Below are positions 3,648 to 25,528 of a DNA stretch of 26,400 nucleotides, in pieces. The DNA comes from a virus, in IMG/VR virus record IMGVR_UViG_3300012950_000022, positions 1 through 26,400 of that record; one strand, 5' to 3'. A program made the position numbers and the translations under genes. Position 1 is the first letter of the stretch. The number at the start of each line of letters is the position of its first letter. The notes under the pieces are model-generated. The model saw only the letters and a list, made by a program, of their open reading frames with translations, was not told the DNA's origin and ran no database searches.

Positions 3648-4478
3648 ATGCAATTAAATAGTTCAGAACTATTCTCTAACTTTTCAGAAGAACTAAGTCG
3701 TAGACTTTATACAGGTGATGATGAGACTTATGCTTACGAACAAGAATGTATTAATATGCACGAATTCATCACCTCTACTGACTATATGGATCTGGAAAGA
3801 GACATATCCGAAGCTAACCTACAACTTTTATGCCATATAGATAATCCCGAAATAAGAGAGGCATGGCTTATATTGGGTAAAGGAAGTGGAAAAAGCTTCA
3901 ATTCTTCTATCTACCAATGTCGAGGTATTTGGAGAACTGCCATGTTGAAAGATCCTCAACGGTATAGTAACCTGGCAGTAGGAACCCATATATATTTTCT
4001 TAATATGGCTACTAATCAAGTCCAAGCTAGAGATATCGTTTTTACCGACTTTATTGAGAAGTTAAAACACAGTAAGTGTTTTTTCGAAGTGACTAATGCT
4101 TTAGATGTTAATCAAATTGATGGACACCGTGTACCTTACTATGTAGATACCAAAGACAGGATCATTTTCCCCAAAAATATTATTGGGATCTGTGGTCACT
4201 CGAAATCAGAAGCATGGTTGGGATATAACACCAAACAAGGTATATTAGATGAGGCAGATTGGTTTGTTGATAACTCTAATAGATCCAAAGCTTATGAAGT
4301 ATATAATGCCTTACTGGGTTCCTGTAGAACCAGGTTTCCAGAACATTATAAAATAATAGTAATCACCTCACCAAAGTCAACAGAGTCATTTGCTGTTAGA
4401 AACATGAGGCAAATATCTAATGATGGTGAGAAAGTAGATTTTTGGAGTAAAAACTTTAAGGAAACAGATGATATATAA
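3648..4478 (+). CDS. Large terminase, ATPase domain only (split gene, 5' part)
   Basis: The 276-aa product contains the terminase motor motifs in order: Walker A GKGSGKS (77-83), Walker B GILDEAD (198-204, with D201 and E202) and the coupling motif ITSPK (239-243). It stops at WSKNFKETDDI, about 33 residues after the coupling motif, where a normal large terminase continues into its RNase H-like nuclease. That nuclease is encoded at 4665-5684 in the same frame, after an intervening ORF in another frame. Two consecutive TAA stops close this gene. Inference: the motor is assembled from two polypeptides, or one full-length protein is made by an unseen mechanism. Confidence 0.88.
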   Translation: MQLNSSELFSNFSEELSRRLYTGDDETYAYEQECINMHEFITSTDYMDLERDISEANLQLLCHIDNPEIREAWLILGKGSGKSFNSSIYQCRGIWRTAMLKDPQRYSNLAVGTHIYFLNMATNQVQARDIVFTDFIEKLKHSKCFFEVTNALDVNQIDGHRVPYYVDTKDRIIFPKNIIGICGHSKSEAWLGYNTKQGILDEADWFVDNSNRSKAYEVYNALLGSCRTRFPEHYKIIVITSPKSTESFAVRNMRQISNDGEKVDFWSKNFKETDDI

Positions 4479-4689
4479 TAACTCAGAAACCCACACCATA
4501 GGTGAATCAGATGTTTATTACCTATTAGAGAGTACTAAAGGAATGAAGGAGTATTCCCATGCCAACTTTCTATTTACTAAAAAAGAGCTAGAAAGGGCTA
4601 AAGAAAGATGGGAAAAAAAAGGTAAGCCTGCTATAGTAAAAAAAGGACTTTTTGGATTTGGTAGATGGGAATTAACAAAGAACGTATAG
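4468..4689 (+). CDS. Small ORF inserted between terminase halves
   Basis: This 73-aa basic protein reads in the +1 frame relative to both terminase parts, overlapping the first by 11 bp and the second by 25 bp. It has its own good ribosome binding site (AAGGA, 5 nt before ATG). Residues 36-50 (FLFTKKELERAKERW) look like a helix found in small phage proteins of unknown role. No terminase motif is present, so it is more likely an inserted gene than terminase sequence displaced by frameshifts. With about 190 bp between the terminase parts, there is little room for a group I intron core plus this ORF. Confidence 0.65.
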   Translation: MIYNNSETHTIGESDVYYLLESTKGMKEYSHANFLFTKKELERAKERWEKKGKPAIVKKGLFGFGRWELTKNV

Positions 4690-5684
4690 ATGTAGATTTA
4701 GATGCCATCTTTACCTTTGAGGATGACCCTGATAATGAAAACAGAGTCAGCTCAGAATTTATTAAGGAAAGGTATGACTATGAGATAAAAATGTTTCAAC
4801 ATGGAAAATCCATAGCTATACAGGCACCTACCTGGAAGATGAGGGGGCAGCAAAGTATCGAACATTATATGGATGAATTTATTAAAAATCCATCTAATGC
4901 CAATCGAGACTTTGCTGCCAACCCTATTGATGCCGTATCTCCTGCTATAGAACATAGGAAGTTTATAGACAGGGTTTTTGAGAGAAAAAAGGACTTTAAA
5001 CACCCCATTATTAAAAACCCATATATTCAACCCAATGGAGAAATTAAAAAGACCGTTTTTATTCCAGACTATAGATGTTTTAATAAAAGTGTTGACCGAT
5101 ATGCACACGTAGATATCGGTCTAACTAGAGACAGACTGGGTTTAGCTGTAGGACATGCCGTAGAATGGAAAGAAAATGAATACCGAAACGTTAGTGGAAG
5201 AGTACGTAAAATTAAAGAACCCATTATGGAATTTGATATGTTAGCCAGTTATAAAGGATATCAAAACAATCCTATTCAACTGAACACTATCAGACAAATA
5301 ATCCTAGATATGTTAGATTTAGGCTTCAATATTAGACGAGTAACCCTAGATGGATATCAATCGGCTGATTTTATTCAATCTATGAATACTTTCGGTATTG
5401 AATCTAAAGTACTCTCTATTGATAAAGACTCAGAGCCTTTTGATGAATTAGTGAAAGCCATTTATGGTAGTAGGCTGCACTTATATCCCTTATTAATTAA
5501 TACACCAGAAGGTAAAGAGAATCTCCCTCATAAAGAACTCAGGCAATTGGAACGGGTTAATAACAAGTATGATCACCCCGTAGGTGGATCACACGACCTA
5601 ATTCAAGCTGTGGCTGGAGTAGTGATGAACATTAAACAATATGCCAAAATTAGTGGGGGAGGAGTTCTTGGCTATCTTAAGTAA
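4665..5684 (+). CDS. Large terminase, nuclease domain only (split gene, 3' part)
   Basis: The 339-aa product lacks the ATPase motifs and starts in the linker region. APTWKM (54-59) corresponds to the conserved TW segment between motor and nuclease in phage terminases. Three acids in RNase H-like positions are visible: AHVDIG (D150), TLDGY (D229) and GSHDLIQA (D311). These would bind two metals to cut concatemeric DNA at packaging start and end. Translation probably starts at 4665, overlapping the inserted ORF, although no strong ribosome binding site is seen. It has the same frame as the ATPase gene, which argues that the two were once one ORF. Confidence 0.87.
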   Translation: MGINKERIDVDLDAIFTFEDDPDNENRVSSEFIKERYDYEIKMFQHGKSIAIQAPTWKMRGQQSIEHYMDEFIKNPSNANRDFAANPIDAVSPAIEHRKFIDRVFERKKDFKHPIIKNPYIQPNGEIKKTVFIPDYRCFNKSVDRYAHVDIGLTRDRLGLAVGHAVEWKENEYRNVSGRVRKIKEPIMEFDMLASYKGYQNNPIQLNTIRQIILDMLDLGFNIRRVTLDGYQSADFIQSMNTFGIESKVLSIDKDSEPFDELVKAIYGSRLHLYPLLINTPEGKENLPHKELRQLERVNNKYDHPVGGSHDLIQAVAGVVMNIKQYAKISGGGVLGYLK

Positions 5685-8083: not shown

Positions 8084-8938
8084 ATGAGTTTAATGGGCAT
8101 GAAAGCCGAATCTATGGGTGTGAACCTAACCAGTGATCGTCCCCCCTTTATAAATTGGAAGAAAAACTCTCGTCTCAGAGTCTTTGGTAGTGTAGAAAGA
8201 CGTTATCAACATTTTGTAGTTGTAAAACAAGATGATGGTAATGAAAAAATTACTGCCGTCAACTGCAGTAATTATGACTATAGTAAAATAGATTTGGCCG
8301 AAACCACCGTTAGAGAAGATCGAGATTGTATTCTTTGTGAAGTATATGACAACCAAATGAATGGTAATGTACATCCAGAGTTGGATTTCGTATCTTTTGC
8401 CCCTAATAGATGGGATTCAGAAAAACCACCCGTCTTGAAGTCTTTTCAAGCTAATATGCTTTGTTTTGACCGTGAAGTACAAGAAGTAGATTTAGCTGGA
8501 TCTATCTCTATCATTTCATTCCGTATGAGTAACTGGAATGAAATAATGGGTTGGATACCTCCTAATATGGAAGAGGCTAAAACAGGTTTTTATCGAGGTG
8601 ACCCAACCGAACCAGCAGAAGGTTATGATATCAAGATTACCTACTTCCCCGACAAAAAGGGTTCAGAGATGTATAATCTTGACTATCAACTTACCAATAG
8701 CCCCCTAACAGAAGAAGAATTACAGGCTATAGAAGATAGAAAAGAAACCTTCCTACTGTCAGAATACTATAAGAAGAAGACCAGAGATGAACAGATACAA
8801 TTCTTGTATGACGTTCATGATGTTCAAGGTAAATCATCCTTTACACCCTGGGAGGATAATAAAAAGGAGTCCACCTCATCGGCTGATGAAACTGATGAGG
8901 TAGCAGGGGAGATAGCTAAATTAATGGAAAATTCCTAA
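8084..8938 (+). CDS. Unknown protein, possible single-stranded DNA-binding protein
   Basis: The 284-aa product starts with a segment like those of phage recombination proteins (GVNLTSDRPPFINWKK), has a beta-rich middle, and ends in a charged region with an acidic tail (SADETDEVAGEIAKLMENS). An acidic C-terminal tail after a compact body is characteristic of ssDNA-binding proteins such as gp32 and SSB, and the next operon includes a Rad50-like ATPase. No zinc site or clear OB-fold motif is seen. The reading as an SSB is therefore a hypothesis. The start is supported by GGAGA about 8 nt upstream. Transcription likely begins near 7990 and ends at the terminator at 9013-9056. Confidence 0.45.
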   Translation: MSLMGMKAESMGVNLTSDRPPFINWKKNSRLRVFGSVERRYQHFVVVKQDDGNEKITAVNCSNYDYSKIDLAETTVREDRDCILCEVYDNQMNGNVHPELDFVSFAPNRWDSEKPPVLKSFQANMLCFDREVQEVDLAGSISIISFRMSNWNEIMGWIPPNMEEAKTGFYRGDPTEPAEGYDIKITYFPDKKGSEMYNLDYQLTNSPLTEEELQAIEDRKETFLLSEYYKKKTRDEQIQFLYDVHDVQGKSSFTPWEDNKKESTSSADETDEVAGEIAKLMENS

Positions 8939-9012: not shown

Positions 9013-9056
9013 AGCCCCAACCCTTGTGGTGACCACTTAGGGGGTTGGGGCTTTTT
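9013..9056 (+). terminator. Rho-independent terminator
   Basis: AGCCCCAACCC (9013-9023) pairs with GGGTTGGGGCT (9042-9052), followed by T's. The loop holds a smaller GTGGT/ACCAC hairpin. A preceding TCCTTAT/ATAAGGA hairpin lies at about 8990-9008. It closes the 8084 gene. Confidence 0.88.
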
Positions 9057-9074
9057 CATACCACACAACTAATT

Positions 9075-9272
9075 ATGTCAAAACAAGAACAAGATGTTAA
9101 GAAAAATATACTAAATACCTTTTTTGAAGAAGAAGAGGTAAAAGACGATAAAAGCTTCCTAGTTTTATTAGTTAGTACCTCCATTTTTGTCCTCTTCAGT
9201 CTTGGTTGCACCTTTTATGGATATATGAAATTTATACAATGGATTATACAGACGATCAAAACAATTTTTTGA
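9075..9272 (+). CDS. Small single-pass membrane protein
   Basis: The 65-aa protein starts at ATG 9075, because the earlier in-frame start lies inside the terminator. A charged N-terminal half (KQEQD...EEEEVKDDK) precedes one membrane helix (SFLVLLVSTSIFVLFSLGCTFYGYM), then a short tail. It overlaps the next gene by 34 bp, which points to translational coupling with the Rad50-like ATPase. It has no known family that I recognise. It may anchor or regulate the ATPase or the histidine kinase encoded downstream. Confidence 0.6.
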   Translation: MSKQEQDVKKNILNTFFEEEEVKDDKSFLVLLVSTSIFVLFSLGCTFYGYMKFIQWIIQTIKTIF

Positions 9273-9889
9273 ATTTTGAAGAAATTACAGACCAGATTGA
9301 ACAGTTAGAAGAGTTAAGAAAGAAATACCACTATCAAAGTCAAGAGATTGAGACTCAATTACAAAAACACCAACAACAACAATCAGATAATGAAGAAATG
9401 GTTGTAGTCTATACTGAAGTTAGGGAATTCCTATCTAAAGTATCGGCTGAATACCGTATTCGGATCTGCAGTACCTTCAACCAACTAGTAACTGAAGCTC
9501 TAAGTCATATTTTTCAAAAAGATATCGACTTCCAAATCAGCCTGGAAAGTTATAGGAACCAACCTGCCATCAATGTCATGATCACTGAAGATTCATTTAT
9601 CCTTGACCCACAAAAATCATGTGGTGGTGGTATGAACGACATTATAGCTCTGATATTCAAAATCATTTTTGTCTACCTAAGTGGGTCACAAAGAACTATC
9701 GTTTTAGATGAAAGTTTAAAATTCCTATCTACTAGCTACTTACAGACAGCTTCAAACTTCCTAGCTGAAATTTGTAGCCGTTTACAGATGCAACTAATCC
9801 TAATTACCCATAAAGAAGATCTGCAGATATCTGCCAACAATATTATCACCATTTCCAAAAGAGAAGGTGCATCCTACATAACAGGTTAA
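9239..9889 (+). CDS. Half-Rad50/SbcC-type ATPase (C-terminal half only)
   Basis: From ATG 9239 the protein has 216 residues; an upstream TTG at 9206 is less likely. A coiled-coil N-terminus (about 14-65) is followed by an ABC signature-like SCGGGMND (127-134), Walker B TIVLDES (153-159) and an H-loop ITHK (189-192). This is the C-terminal lobe of Rad50/SbcC/SMC-type ATPases; the Walker A lobe is absent here and in the neighbouring genes. Known: in full-length enzymes the signature acts on ATP bound by the partner's Walker A. Inference: it works with another subunit encoded elsewhere or by the host, or it only senses nucleotide. It is coupled to the membrane protein upstream and to the histidine kinase 2 bp downstream. 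Confidence 0.7.
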   Translation: MDYTDDQNNFLNFEEITDQIEQLEELRKKYHYQSQEIETQLQKHQQQQSDNEEMVVVYTEVREFLSKVSAEYRIRICSTFNQLVTEALSHIFQKDIDFQISLESYRNQPAINVMITEDSFILDPQKSCGGGMNDIIALIFKIIFVYLSGSQRTIVLDESLKFLSTSYLQTASNFLAEICSRLQMQLILITHKEDLQISANNIITISKREGASYITG

Positions 9890-9891
9890 AA

Positions 9892-11397
9892 ATGTTTGAT
9901 TTAATTTTTCTATCAGCTTTTCAGTTAAAACTATGGCAAGTACTTTTTCTAGGATCTCTATGGGGTATGGCTACATCCTTTATAGTATCTAGAATTTTAT
10001 CTAGACAACAAGATGTGGTTGTTTGTAACATTAAGAAATATCTGTCAGAAACCCTATTAGAACATAGAAAAGCTGCTACCGAAATAGTAGGTAATGAAGT
10101 TGGACAAAATATATCTCAACAATTAAAACTGGTGAAGGAAGAACTGAAACAGGCTTTAACCGATAAGGTGATAGCTCAGGATGCCCAGGTGACAGCTCAA
10201 TATGCTCTGGTGGCAGCAGAAGATGCCAGCCAAGCTAAAACCGACTTCCTGTCTCGGATGTCACATGAAATACGGACTCCCATTAACGGTATTATCGGTT
10301 CCCTGGATCTGATAAACCTAGTCGAAGTGACAGAGGTACAAGGTCAAGATATCCAACGGGCTGTCGATTCTTCCAATCGTTTACTAACAGTCATCAATGA
10401 AATACTCAATTTCTCTAGCCTGGAGGCTGGAGCTGTAAAATATGATTGTGGCTCTATTAATATAACTACTATAACTCAGGATATCGTAGGTTCATTACAA
10501 CCACTAGCCGATAAAAAAGATTTACCCATACACACAGTAATAGATCCCAAAATACTACTGGAGAGTACTAATCGATGGGGTGATCAACAAAAAATCGGAC
10601 AAATATTGACTAACCTAATTGGTAATGCCATCAAATTTACCCCTCAAGGTGAAATAATAATTTCTATCCAAACCCTAAAAAAAGACTGGTTACGTTTCGA
10701 AATCTCAGATACAGGTATCGGTATCGAGACTGAAAAACAAGAAAAACTATTCGAACCCTTCAACCAAGGGGATGAAGGTAATAATCGTAACTTCGGAGGT
10801 ACGGGTCTAGGTCTATCCATCAGTAAAAAATATGTAGAGGGAATGGGTGGTAAAATAGGAGTCGAAAGCCATAAAAAAATTGGCTCTATATTTTGGTTCG
10901 AATTGGAATTGTGTAAAAAACGTTGTGATCAATCTCCAAACTGTTTTATTATCAATGGTGTACGGCATATTCCCAACGTAGAGTTAGAGTTAGAGTTAGA
11001 AGGTAACCTCCCCTCAAGAGATATAAGGGTATTAATAGTAGATGATGATGTGGTCAACAGAACAGTGGCTAAACGTCACCTGGAACAGATGGGTTGCCAA
11101 ACTGACGAGGCAGAAGATGGTAAATCGGCCATTAAGAAGTTTCGACAAATAAAATATGATCTAATAATCATGGATCTGCAGATGCCTAAAATGGACGGTT
11201 TTGAGGCTAGTCGTAAAATACGTAGGCTAGAACAAGAACAGGAGCTAGATCCTACTCCTATCTTAGCCCTATCTGCCAGTGTGTTGGGTGAAGTAGAGAA
11301 ACAGTGTTATGAGGCAGGGATGGACGACTATGTGGGTAAACCCTTCAAAAAATATGAATTAATAAATAAAATAAATCGTCTAGTTAATATGGAATGA
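9892..11397 (+). CDS. Membrane-anchored hybrid histidine kinase with receiver domain
   Basis: The 501-aa protein has one N-terminal membrane helix (about 14-36) and a long coiled coil (about 45-115). The HisKA domain carries SHEIRTP (phosphoacceptor H125). The HATPase domain has an N box at 241-250, DTGIG (D273) and GGTGLGLSISK (302-312). After an acidic linker of repeated Glu-Leu codons comes a receiver (about 378-500) with VDDD (D384, D385), phosphoacceptor D428 in MDLQMPKMDGF, S461 and K483. All catalytic residues are intact. No periplasmic sensor, Hpt or DNA-binding output domain is present. It would sense through the membrane or coiled coil and pass phosphate to an outside partner, probably a host Hpt protein. 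Hybrid kinases are rare in phages. It is translationally linked to the Rad50-like ATPase gene. Confidence 0.95.
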   Translation: MFDLIFLSAFQLKLWQVLFLGSLWGMATSFIVSRILSRQQDVVVCNIKKYLSETLLEHRKAATEIVGNEVGQNISQQLKLVKEELKQALTDKVIAQDAQVTAQYALVAAEDASQAKTDFLSRMSHEIRTPINGIIGSLDLINLVEVTEVQGQDIQRAVDSSNRLLTVINEILNFSSLEAGAVKYDCGSINITTITQDIVGSLQPLADKKDLPIHTVIDPKILLESTNRWGDQQKIGQILTNLIGNAIKFTPQGEIIISIQTLKKDWLRFEISDTGIGIETEKQEKLFEPFNQGDEGNNRNFGGTGLGLSISKKYVEGMGGKIGVESHKKIGSIFWFELELCKKRCDQSPNCFIINGVRHIPNVELELELEGNLPSRDIRVLIVDDDVVNRTVAKRHLEQMGCQTDEAEDGKSAIKKFRQIKYDLIIMDLQMPKMDGFEASRKIRRLEQEQELDPTPILALSASVLGEVEKQCYEAGMDDYVGKPFKKYELINKINRLVNME

Positions 11398-11438: not shown

Positions 11439-11510
11439 CTAACAAAATTAATTATTACATTAGTTTTTGTTATCAAGGCTACCACCTCTATTTAGAGGTG
11501 GTTTTTTTTT
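11439..11510 (+). ncRNA. Candidate small RNA 3
   Basis: Extended -10 TGTTACAAT at 11424-11432 precedes a 5' hairpin (AACAAAA pairing with TTTTTGTT inside 11440-11472) and the terminator at 11482-11510. The transcript would be about 70 nt. It could equally be an attenuated leader for the gene at 11536. Confidence 0.45.
11482..11510 (+). terminator. Rho-independent terminator
   Basis: CCACCTCT (11482-11489) pairs with AGAGGTGG (11494-11501), followed by nine T. Confidence 0.88.
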
Positions 11511-11535: not shown

Positions 11536-11781
11536 ATGTTTGGTTCAGATACCGTTGTACTTTCTAATAAAATTTCCAAACTAATGGATGAAGTTAGAAA
11601 AGATATCTATAAAAGGTGTAACTTAAATAAACAAATTAAGGATATGACCTGGGACGAGAAAATGTCGAAACTGCCAGCCGATGCTTGGATGGTAGAACAG
11701 ATGATGTTTCAAATAGAACGTTATATACAAAGACAAAGTGGATTAATTAAGTGGCACCCACCTTTAGATATTAAAGAATAA
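11536..11781 (+). CDS. Hypothetical protein, 81 aa
   Basis: Not recognised. It is helical, with alternating charged and Met/Leu residues (KLMDEVRKDIYKRC, MVEQMMFQIERYI), and may form a helical bundle or dimer. It sits between a promoter-terminator unit and the dCMP-deaminase gene, from which it is separated by 2 bp, so the two probably share a transcript. It has no membrane segment or catalytic motif. Its ribosome binding site is poor. Confidence 0.6.
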   Translation: MFGSDTVVLSNKISKLMDEVRKDIYKRCNLNKQIKDMTWDEKMSKLPADAWMVEQMMFQIERYIQRQSGLIKWHPPLDIKE

Positions 11782-12694: not shown

Positions 12695-12766
12695 TAGAAA
12701 GACACAGACTTTCGTTCAACTGAACCCACAACTAGTTTTTAATAGTCGAATTAGTTGTGGGTTTTT
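12695..12766 (+). ncRNA. Candidate small RNA 5
   Basis: Extended -10 TGTTACAAT (12680-12688), a small GAAAG/CTTTC hairpin, then the terminator at 12724-12767, for about 70 nt. Its 3' end overlaps the 3' end of the opposing SET gene, so it may also act as antisense there. Confidence 0.45.
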
Positions 12767-12767
12767 A
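12724..12767 (+). terminator. Rho-independent terminator
   Basis: ACCCACAACTA (12724-12734) pairs with TAGTTGTGGGT (12752-12762), followed by T's. It overlaps the stop of the minus-strand SET gene. Confidence 0.82.
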
Positions 12768-13083
12768 TTTGGTAGAGAGTATAACTACAGGTTATCTCTT
12801 CCCCCTGCCCAATCCTCTCTATAGTCCATAATTCCAATACTTCGGTGTGACCAACCACCAACCTCTTTACTAACTCACAATTGGGTGTATCAGAATGATT
12901 GTAAAATCCACCTAGTGGAGTTCGACAATAGTTTTGAGGGAATAAACCACCCAGATAGACCTTGAGATGAGTAATGCCCAGGTTGATGCCTATGTCTAAA
13001 CTGGTGTTGGCAAATAAACCCATGCCGTCTATGGGAGATTTTTTGATGGAAATACACTCTGGTAGTGGTCTATAGTTCAACAT
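12751..13083 (-). CDS. SET-domain protein, probable lysine methyltransferase
   Basis: The 110-aa protein contains the SET-domain landmarks: GMGLFA (20-25), NHSDTPNC (62-69, the SAM/pseudoknot motif) and GEEITCSY (94-101) with its catalytic Tyr. It consists of little more than the SET core, without pre- or post-SET zinc regions, as in small bacterial and phage SET proteins. It would transfer methyl groups from S-adenosylmethionine to a protein lysine; the target is unknown. It is the only minus-strand gene in a rightward stretch. A TATAAT (minus, 13125-13130) lies about 40 bp upstream, overlapping a rightward promoter candidate. Confidence 0.8.
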   Translation of the reverse strand: MLNYRPLPECISIKKSPIDGMGLFANTSLDIGINLGITHLKVYLGGLFPQNYCRTPLGGFYNHSDTPNCELVKRLVVGHTEVLELWTIERIGQGEEITCSYTLYQIKTHN

Positions 13084-15250: not shown

Positions 15251-15628
15251 TTAATCTTCCTTTCCATTGTTCCTCTGGTCATACAAGGCTACCACTGCAC
15301 TGCTGAGAATTCCTAACATGACTAATAGTAGCCTTTCGAAAAAGGCCAACTCTTTTTCGATGCCGATGGTGCCTTTGGGTGACCACCAACTGATGATACT
15401 CATACATACCATGCCACCCACTAATAATATAACCCCAATGAAAACTAGCCTGACTACACTTATCTGTCCCTGAGTCTTTAATAAGCTGGAATTCTGCTTT
15501 TCACTCTTGTCCAGGTTGTTTATCAAATCCTGGACTTGAGTCTCTAAGATTAAAATTACCTCATGGTCAGTTTTGCCATTGTAGATGCCGTTAATCTCAT
15601 TTTCACTTTTGCTTGGGTTTTGGTTCAT
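15251..15628 (-). CDS. Two-helix membrane protein with N-terminal coiled coil
   Basis: The 125-aa protein has a polar N-terminus with a probable coiled coil (about 24-50: EVILILETQVQDLINNLD), then two hydrophobic helices (about 57-80, VVRLVFIGVILLVGGMVCM, and about 96-114, LLLVMLGILSSAVVAL) and a charged end. The topology could suit a phage membrane effector or spanin/holin accessory, but no family is recognised. Its start overlaps the preceding small ORF by 26 bp. It is part of the leftward operon. Confidence 0.6.
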   Translation of the reverse strand: MNQNPSKSENEINGIYNGKTDHEVILILETQVQDLINNLDKSEKQNSSLLKTQGQISVVRLVFIGVILLVGGMVCMSIISWWSPKGTIGIEKELAFFERLLLVMLGILSSAVVALYDQRNNGKED

Positions 15629-16417: not shown

Positions 16418-16505
16418 TAACTGTTTTTACCTTTCTTTTAAAATATCCTGCTTCAAAAAACACCTATTTACGTTTTTTGGGAAATACTGTTTTTTTAAAA
16501 ATCCC

Positions 16506-16622
16506 AAAATGGAAAATACTGTTGTTCAAGAAAACTCAAAAATGGAAAATATAAAATGGAAAATATTCCCCTTCAATAAAACTCAAAAATGAAAAATATA
16601 AAATGGAAAATATTCCCCTTCA
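16506..16622. repeat. AT-rich iterons in a tandem 47-bp repeat
   Basis: AAAATGGAAAATA occurs at 16506-16518, 16539-16551, 16553-16565, 16586-16598 (one change) and 16600-16612, at intervals of 33, 14, 33 and 14 bp. From 16531 the sequence is two nearly identical 47-bp units, each ending in TTCCCCTTCA. It lies in the divergent region between the leftward operon and the right arm, like an iteron-type replication origin or repressor site. The rest of 16418-16780 holds no gene. Confidence 0.65.
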
Positions 16623-16784
16623 GGAAATGTGTGAATTAGGTTTCGTATGAAAAACGAGAATCCAAAATCACAAATCCATTTATAATTTTCACAGCACCAC
16701 TTTTTTCAGATCTAAAATTTTATTTTTAAACCCTAAAACCCACTAAATACAACTAGCACTAAACTGTTTAAAATACCAACATAG

Positions 16785-24646: not shown

Positions 24647-25528
24647 ATGGCAAGACAAGACATGTACACTACTGCTACCGATAACGTCATTACTATGTTG
24701 GAAACTGCTGGTAAGGATTGGTCAAAGAGTTGGACAATCAAAGGCAATTGCAACGTGGTCACAGGCAAACCTTATCAAGGTATCAATGCCTTCATGATAG
24801 CTTATGCACCATTCAGTTCCCCATTTTGGGGAACTTACAAGCAATGGTCTTCTAAAGAATGCCAAGTGCAAAAGGGGGAGAAAGGCACAGACATAATTTT
24901 CTTCAACTACATCCAGAAGAAAAACAAAGATGGCAGTATCTTTATTAATGATAACGGTAGTCAAGAATCTTTTCCTCTGCTACGTGGATACAAAATCTTT
25001 AACTTCGATCAGGTCGAAGGTAAGTGGACTCCACCAGAAGAGAAAGAAATTGATGAAAACATAAGATTCGATCACGTCGATAATTATGTAATCAATACTG
25101 AAGCTGAGATACAACATGGTCAAGACCAAGCATACTACAGTCCTCTCTCAGACTACATCGGTATGCCCGACCTAGAACAGTTCAAGGATTCAGAAAGTTA
25201 TTACAGTGTCCTGTTGCATGAGTTGATGCACTGGACAAAAACTGAGAAACGTTGCAACCGTTTGAATGAACGGTTCGAAAAGAGAATGGGCAAAGAACAT
25301 AGCTATGCCTTCGAAGAACTAGTAGCCGAATTGGGTTCCATCTTTCTTGGTATCGAACTCAAGGTTCAAGCTACTCCACAACCGAACAATGCCAAGTATC
25401 TAAACAGTTGGCTGGAGAAACTGAAGCAGGACAAACGTTTTATATTTAGTGCCAGTAGCTATGCACAGAAGGCAGTAACCTTCTGCAACAAACTACAGGA
25501 AACTAAAATGAAGGAGAAGGTAGCTTAA
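24647..25528 (+). CDS. ArdC-type antirestriction protein
   Basis: The 293-aa product matches ArdC (DUF1738 plus zincin-like C-terminus). The N-terminal half holds the ArdC signature (ITMLETAG, W-S-K-S-W, TGKPYQGINAFM, WGTYKQWSSKECQVQKGEKG, 15-80). The C-terminal half has HELMH (191-195, the HExxH zinc site) and YAFEELVAELGS (220-231). Known: ArdC proteins bind ssDNA and can protect incoming DNA from type I restriction; the role of the protease-like fold is unsettled. In a phage this would be an early counter-defence protein, consistent with its place in the right arm. It has a good ribosome binding site (AAGGAG) and closes with a TAATG overlap. Confidence 0.88.
   Translation: MARQDMYTTATDNVITMLETAGKDWSKSWTIKGNCNVVTGKPYQGINAFMIAYAPFSSPFWGTYKQWSSKECQVQKGEKGTDIIFFNYIQKKNKDGSIFINDNGSQESFPLLRGYKIFNFDQVEGKWTPPEEKEIDENIRFDHVDNYVINTEAEIQHGQDQAYYSPLSDYIGMPDLEQFKDSESYYSVLLHELMHWTKTEKRCNRLNERFEKRMGKEHSYAFEELVAELGSIFLGIELKVQATPQPNNAKYLNSWLEKLKQDKRFIFSASSYAQKAVTFCNKLQETKMKEKVA

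Follow-up and report, generated by a model that had tools for sequence, protein, structure and literature searches.

The locus studied here raises the question of whether three tightly packed viral genes, encoding a small membrane protein, a Rad50-like ATPase, and a hybrid histidine kinase, work together or are merely adjacent. The window is the whole 26,400-nt IMG/VR virus record IMGVR_UViG_3300012950_000022, a 26.4-kb fragment that carries portal, terminase pieces, single-strand DNA-binding protein (SSB), and tRNA-Glu genes. An earlier note had read the three genes as one signalling or superinfection-sensing module that plugs into a host phosphorelay. The arrangement it described was confirmed: the genes (9075-9272, 9239-9889, and 9892-11397) are joined by a 34-bp overlap and a 2-bp gap and bounded by two terminators, with an upstream hairpin (9013-9052; -30.2 kcal/mol, z -4.7) next to a T run and a downstream hairpin (11481-11502; 9-bp stem, z -4.6) with T8. 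All three genes are conserved in relatives and so are not chance ORFs. We consider it likely that the operon consists of two functionally unrelated units, a split-SbcC recombination unit (9075-9889) and a mobile hybrid kinase (9892-11397). The features on which this interpretation draws are the following.

8084..8938, plus strand: gp32-like SSB (Pfam gp32, E 2.5e-4)
9013..9057, plus strand: intrinsic terminator between the SSB gene and the operon (hairpin, then T run)
9075..9272, plus strand: small membrane protein of 65 aa, candidate anchor of the SbcC C-subunit (ATG at 9075, stop at 9272; homologues)
9239..9889, plus strand: 216-aa protein, predicted C-terminal subunit of a split SbcC/Rad50 (has a coiled coil, the ABC signature, and Walker B; lacks Walker A)
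9892..11397, plus strand: 501-aa hybrid histidine kinase, with HisKA, HATPase_c, and receiver domains following an N-terminal membrane helix and a signalling coil (Pfam)
10166..10227, plus strand: tandem repeat of a 21-bp unit (seven residues) within the signalling helix of the kinase (TRF)
10979..11000, plus strand: TAGAGT x3.7, a perfect hexanucleotide array in the linker that joins HATPase_c to the receiver (TRF)
11481..11510, plus strand: intrinsic terminator 3' of the kinase (fold and T8)
11536..11781, plus strand: 81-aa protein (48% identity over 66 aa to a homologue)
15251..15628, minus strand: M1, a small protein that combines an N-terminal coil with two hydrophobic segments (alignment)

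A split SbcC/Rad50

Alignment places the start of the ATPase at ATG 9239, which is conserved in relatives; the ORF called from TTG 9206 extends too far upstream. The protein carries the ABC signature SCGGG and the Walker B motif IVLDES, and no GxxxxGK[ST] (Walker A) was found in it, in agreement with the earlier note. The GGG of the signature, IVLDE, and THK (the H-switch) are conserved across an alignment of 34 sequences. The window protein matches phrog_15167 (4e-30) and phrog_77, SbcC (1e-8); Rad50 C-lobes were the best matches of the C-half in a PDB profile search (4.5e-18), and Rad50 chain B was the top Foldseek match of its AF2 model (pLDDT 91). Judged by its sequence and predicted fold, the window ATPase is the C-terminal half of a split SbcC/Rad50 and not part of a sensor.

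The N-terminal half was found in relatives. A portal-protein scan returned nine related contigs, including L006 (133.6 kb) and L010 (about 104.9 kb); L-numbers label the phage contigs and records compared. When L006, L010, and Bacillus phage vB_BboS-125 were searched with PF13476, each yielded exactly one ORF with a Walker A. This N-half is 307 aa long and ends at CPIC in L006, and is 330 aa long and ends at CPTC in L010. In both contigs, it lies on the opposite strand about 33 kb from the C-half, a distance taken from the locus ranges, and is followed by an SbcD gene. Profile scans with both halves recovered dozens more phage contigs with split halves. The N-half was upstream of the C-half on the same strand, at 0.27-5.6 kb, in 62/62 stretches containing both, a set that includes overlapping stretches and near-identical Bacillus prophages, so the independent cases are fewer. 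The N-half ORF ends 6-23 aa past the CPxC zinc hook in 58 of 63 distinct ORFs, many of them from near-identical Bacillus prophages. No P-loop was found in the C-halves, and every relative examined encodes the two lobes in separate genes rather than on one polypeptide. An SbcD-type phosphoesterase (PF00149) was present in all 14 split-SbcC records tested, both long relatives included, and that of L165 matches TIGR00619 sbcD. SbcD, the zinc hook, and the N-half itself are all absent from the window fragment, where the best tblastn match to the N-half (E 0.004) was a coiled-coil match. A degenerate or orphan ATPase was also considered and was ruled out by the N-half and SbcD found in relatives. 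Apparent SbcD-SbcC(N-half) fusions were seen in L048 (5216-7351; 712 aa) and L043 (4462-6768; 769 aa); they were called from an SbcD match falling in an ORF as long as the N-half ORF, and both end near the zinc hook with a separate C-half downstream.

The N-half and C-half profiles match the Rad50 N-lobe and C-lobe separately, and the single-chain AlphaFold models, including that of the N-half (pLDDT 81), match the respective lobes. Taken together, these sequences and models establish the split architecture and the predicted fold of each half. Among the matches were 1ii8_A and 1ii8_B, the two separate chains from which heads of P. furiosus Rad50 were crystallised, so it is plausible that the phage halves can reassemble. 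On this reading, the genome carries the partner N-half, with Walker A, ascending coil, and C-terminal zinc hook, at a separate site adjoining SbcD; N-half and C-half would form one ABC head per protomer, and the SbcCD assembly would process DNA ends in replication and recombination, beside the SSB.

This SbcC shares with the SbcCD/Mre11-Rad50 systems (E. coli SbcC, P. furiosus Rad50, and T4 gp46/gp47) the N-lobe Walker A, the C-lobe signature and Walker B, the coiled coil, the CPxC hook in the N-half, and, in relatives, a nearby SbcD-type phosphoesterase. It differs in being made of two (often three) polypeptides and, in the window lineage, in having its halves about 33 kb apart on opposite strands. 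Named phages with the split are rare: apart from vB_BboS-125, whose halves are gp32 and gp35, there is the Microbacterium phage Magritte, whose gp155 (hypothetical) and gp2 ('exonuclease') are about 93 kb apart, and one further match in the named set, an unannotated uncultured phage, was obtained from the C-half side alone. In PHROGs, the C-half belongs to phrog_15167 ('ATPase') and the N-half to phrog_16465 ('exonuclease'); both families thus already hold the halves, but as unrelated entries, and their link as one SbcC is unstated there. A literature search, thin on subscription papers, returned no description of a split SbcC/Rad50. If our reading is right, a Rad50/SbcC cut exactly past its zinc hook is a natural dissection of one of the most highly conserved repair machines, and shows that its coil can be built from two chains. 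It would also join the two PHROG families and explain the lone 'ATPase' and 'exonuclease' annotations in phages.

The C-half ATPase gene lies 3' of the SSB gene in all relatives that reach it, either directly or with one or two small genes between, and the gene after it varies: the kinase in the window, an RRM protein in L006, a 66-aa coil in L010, and 84-88-aa proteins in L008 and L009. Two insertions in this region were observed in passing, a ThyX gene between the SSB gene and the membrane/C-half pair in L002 (3674-4315) and, two genes past the SbcC C-half in L006 (14070-15365), an OrfB/TnpB-type gene with a Cas12f1-like TNB domain.

The membrane protein and the coil slot

The 65-aa protein has a single hydrophobic segment (residues 28-46). 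Homologues of its gene occur in L002 and in L005-L007, which form one near-identical lineage; the gene is absent from L008-L010. Its overlap with the ATPase gene is exactly 34 bp in three phages (the window, L002, and the L005-L007 lineage). In T4, gp46/gp47 is membrane-associated and the 46-aa gp47.1 has been suggested as its anchor, and in SPN3US a 63-aa TM gene follows SbcC (PMC5105663). Like T4 gp47.1 and SPN3US gp187 (PMC5105663), the window protein is a small one-helix product encoded beside SbcC(D); it differs in that its gene overlaps the start of the SbcC C-half by 34 bp, and the likeness is one of size and position. Because T4 gp46/gp47 is membrane-associated and the SPN3US membrane gene adjoins SbcC, a tether is the simplest reading, and by this analogy the 65-aa protein probably anchors the SbcC C-subunit to the membrane.

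In most of the distant loci (about 50, counted by eye), a coiled-coil ORF of about 77-100 aa lies between the halves and abuts the C-half; the ORF of about 80 aa at L003 5684-5920 is an example, and a matching ORF is present in most C-half loci. Some small ORF fills this slot in 62 of 65 loci. It is possible that the coil ORF of about 80 aa is a third piece of SbcC. In the window lineage, the slot abutting the C-half is taken by the membrane protein; homology between it and the coil genes of the same slot was not shown.

The hybrid kinase and its neighborhood

The kinase begins 2 bp past the ATPase stop, a spacing that could give useful co-expression of the two. Its Pfam domains are HisKA (115-180), HATPase_c (230-340), and Response_reg (380-494), and the protein ends right past the receiver. 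A single-sequence scan of IMG/VR with the kinase returned nothing; an alignment of two sequences (the window and L006, 50% identical) returned six more orthologues. Most kinase matches in the 'phages' collection were records of bacterial size or name (Salmonella and Acinetobacter contigs) and were left out. The phage orthologues are 452-501 aa long and share the same architecture, one truncated copy excepted. H125, N245, D273/G275/G277, D385, D428, and K483 are invariant in all eight (the window and seven others). The kinase had been described beforehand as complete and membrane-bound, with a receiver and without an output domain. The conserved phosphotransfer residues, none of the phosphoacceptors being lost in any of the eight, and the end point of the protein agree with this description; the membrane helix is clear in six orthologues and falls below the hydropathy cut-off in the window copy.

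No Pfam match to a periplasmic, HAMP, or PAS sensor was found in the phage kinase, and its matches to NCBIfam TorS (7.7e-100) and BarA (2.4e-89) were all far below the equivalog cut-offs. The order HisKA-HATPase_c-receiver is common to the phage kinase and hybrid kinases of the BarA/TorS/RcsC type, whereas the phage kinase is short, lacks an Hpt, has a repeat-bearing linker, and is phage-borne. Neither an Hpt nor a second receiver was found in the nine phage records searched, which is weak evidence, as most of the records are fragments. The output of the kinase, if it signals at all, would therefore run through the host, and our best guess from the sequences is that a host phosphorelay is the likely target. 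The kinase, which has no extracellular sensor, most likely autophosphorylates on a membrane or cytoplasmic cue, and its receiver phosphate would then pass to a host Hpt and tune the host phosphorelay in infection. The protein could act as a phosphatase or phosphate sink instead. A literature search, equally thin on subscription papers, gave no match for a phage histidine kinase. Whether phages can plug a working hybrid kinase into the phosphorelay of their host is a question that this family makes testable.

Two kinds of repeat occur in the kinase genes. The 21-bp repeat is also present in L072 (8238-8286), and the signalling helix is lengthened in both copies. At the linker position where the window has TAGAGT x3.7, different perfect hexamers were found in L072 (8988-9078; CAAGCA x15.2), L073 (8916-8976; GAGTCA x10.2), and L077 (8892-8926; GAAGCC x5.8); since the units differ, the repeats arose separately. 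Perfect hexamer arrays numbered 13 in the 2.09 Mb of sequence fetched, 4 of them inside these kinase genes, which total 11 kb, and 82 other kinase matches contained none. On this comparative evidence, the length of the linker is evolutionarily fluid. Slippage in the repeat can change it in two-residue steps, and in-frame repeats would thus give the kinase a changeable linker length; we hypothesize that such slippage takes place during infection. A wider proposal is that many phages have a three-piece SbcC (hook N-half, coil of about 80 aa, and C-half), with the anchor occupying the coil slot here, and that the kinase is a phosphorelay hijacker tuned by hypermutable hexanucleotide and heptad repeats. 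We put this forward tentatively, as a possibility that would more probably fail than hold.

The surroundings of the kinase bear on the supposed linkage of the three genes. In L006, the kinase is 5.7 kb past the ATPase, and in L072-L077 it adjoins M1/M2 membrane genes. No C-half was found in L072-L077, and no kinase in the about 104.8 kb of L010. The kinase, membrane gene, and ATPase are thus separable in relatives: conserved co-occurrence of the three in phages was not seen, the kinase has unrelated neighbors in L006 and L072-L077, and the proposal of one signalling module is not supported. An M1 homologue precedes the kinase in L006, L072, L074, L075, and L077. A homologue of the 81-aa protein is encoded directly 3' of the kinase in L074 and 3' of M1 in L160, and the dCMP deaminase that follows the 81-aa gene is 70% identical in L160. 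Since M1, the 81-aa gene, and the dCMP deaminase are shared across phages, we conclude from gene content that the kinase belongs to an accessory cassette moving between phages. Together with the alignments, these data show that the kinase is conserved, that it is independent of the split-SbcC unit, and that it carries repeats.

The recurrent company of M1 suggests another role for the kinase, in lysis or late-gene control, with M1 as a two-helix membrane partner serving as its sensor. Outside the window, M1 was found in six phage contigs, and in five of them it adjoins or is near the kinase; in L075 the two genes share 4 bp. Tail-fibre, GH108-like, and weakly holin-like genes are nearby. However, M1 occurs without a kinase in L160, belongs to no recognised family, and in the window is on the strand opposite to the kinase, at a distance of 4 kb. 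We regard this role as unlikely, and prefer to describe the kinase as a mobile unit that probably acts through the host.

Other readings of the locus and further genes of the window

Phages are known to counter host end-processing nucleases, and an ATPase without Walker A might do so by itself, pairing with host SbcC in a regulatory or dominant-negative way and blocking host SbcCD. Its predicted C-lobe fold is one that could pair with the N-lobe of a host protein. However, the related genomes have an N-half and an SbcD of their own, and the Walker B, signature, and H residues remain intact, as in a working subunit, which makes this explanation improbable compared with the split SbcC set out above.

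It is also improbable that the phage took up the kinase from its host only recently, as a passenger of little use to it. The eight orthologues scored 597-739 bits, whereas the next kinase scored 405. They group in one clade (91/94), within which the window and L006 pair together (98/94). Its sister group (100/100) is formed by kinases from a Candidatus Poribacteria MAG; no closer cellular relatives were found, and this MAG also holds M1, which would fit a capture. But the eight orthologues keep the catalytic residues and short architecture at about 40-50% identity, and long-term purifying selection in phages follows from this. The genome scan with M1 found one 4.5-kb contig of the Candidatus Poribacteria MAG, holding an M1 fragment. 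As M1 was present in 1 of 85 Poribacteria-phylum genomes and the others sampled had no kinase at E 1e-100, Candidatus Poribacteria as the host is unproven by these sequences.

The weakest reading, that the membrane peptide, SMC-like ATPase, and kinase are one module in which the ATPase relays DNA or superinfection status to the kinase, has in its favor that the window genes are closely spaced between one pair of terminators and that both kinase and C-half are present in L006, but it is very improbable given that the kinase is remote from the ATPase in L006, missing from L010, and beside other neighbors in records without the C-half, and that dozens of contigs have the C-half in another gene context. 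The suggested role in superinfection sensing found no support in these data; PADLOC gave weak domain-level matches alone (best E 1.6e-5).

Several further observations were made in the window. The terminase-like sequence (3648-5684) falls into two ORFs, separated by a small ORF of 73 aa (4468-4689); homologues of the small ORF are found near the kinases in L073, L074, and L075. A standalone protein encoded at 1356-2414 has an intein-like beginning (CNKTEILTRKGFKKIGEI) and resembles homing endonucleases, with no clear Pfam match. A 110-aa SET-domain protein (PF00856, E 2.8e-7), unusual for a phage, is encoded on the minus strand (12751-13083), and an ArdC-like anti-restriction protein (PF08401 and PF18818) at 24647-25528. 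Finally, a 47-bp tandem repeat with units of AAAATGGAAAATAT is located at 16478-16627.
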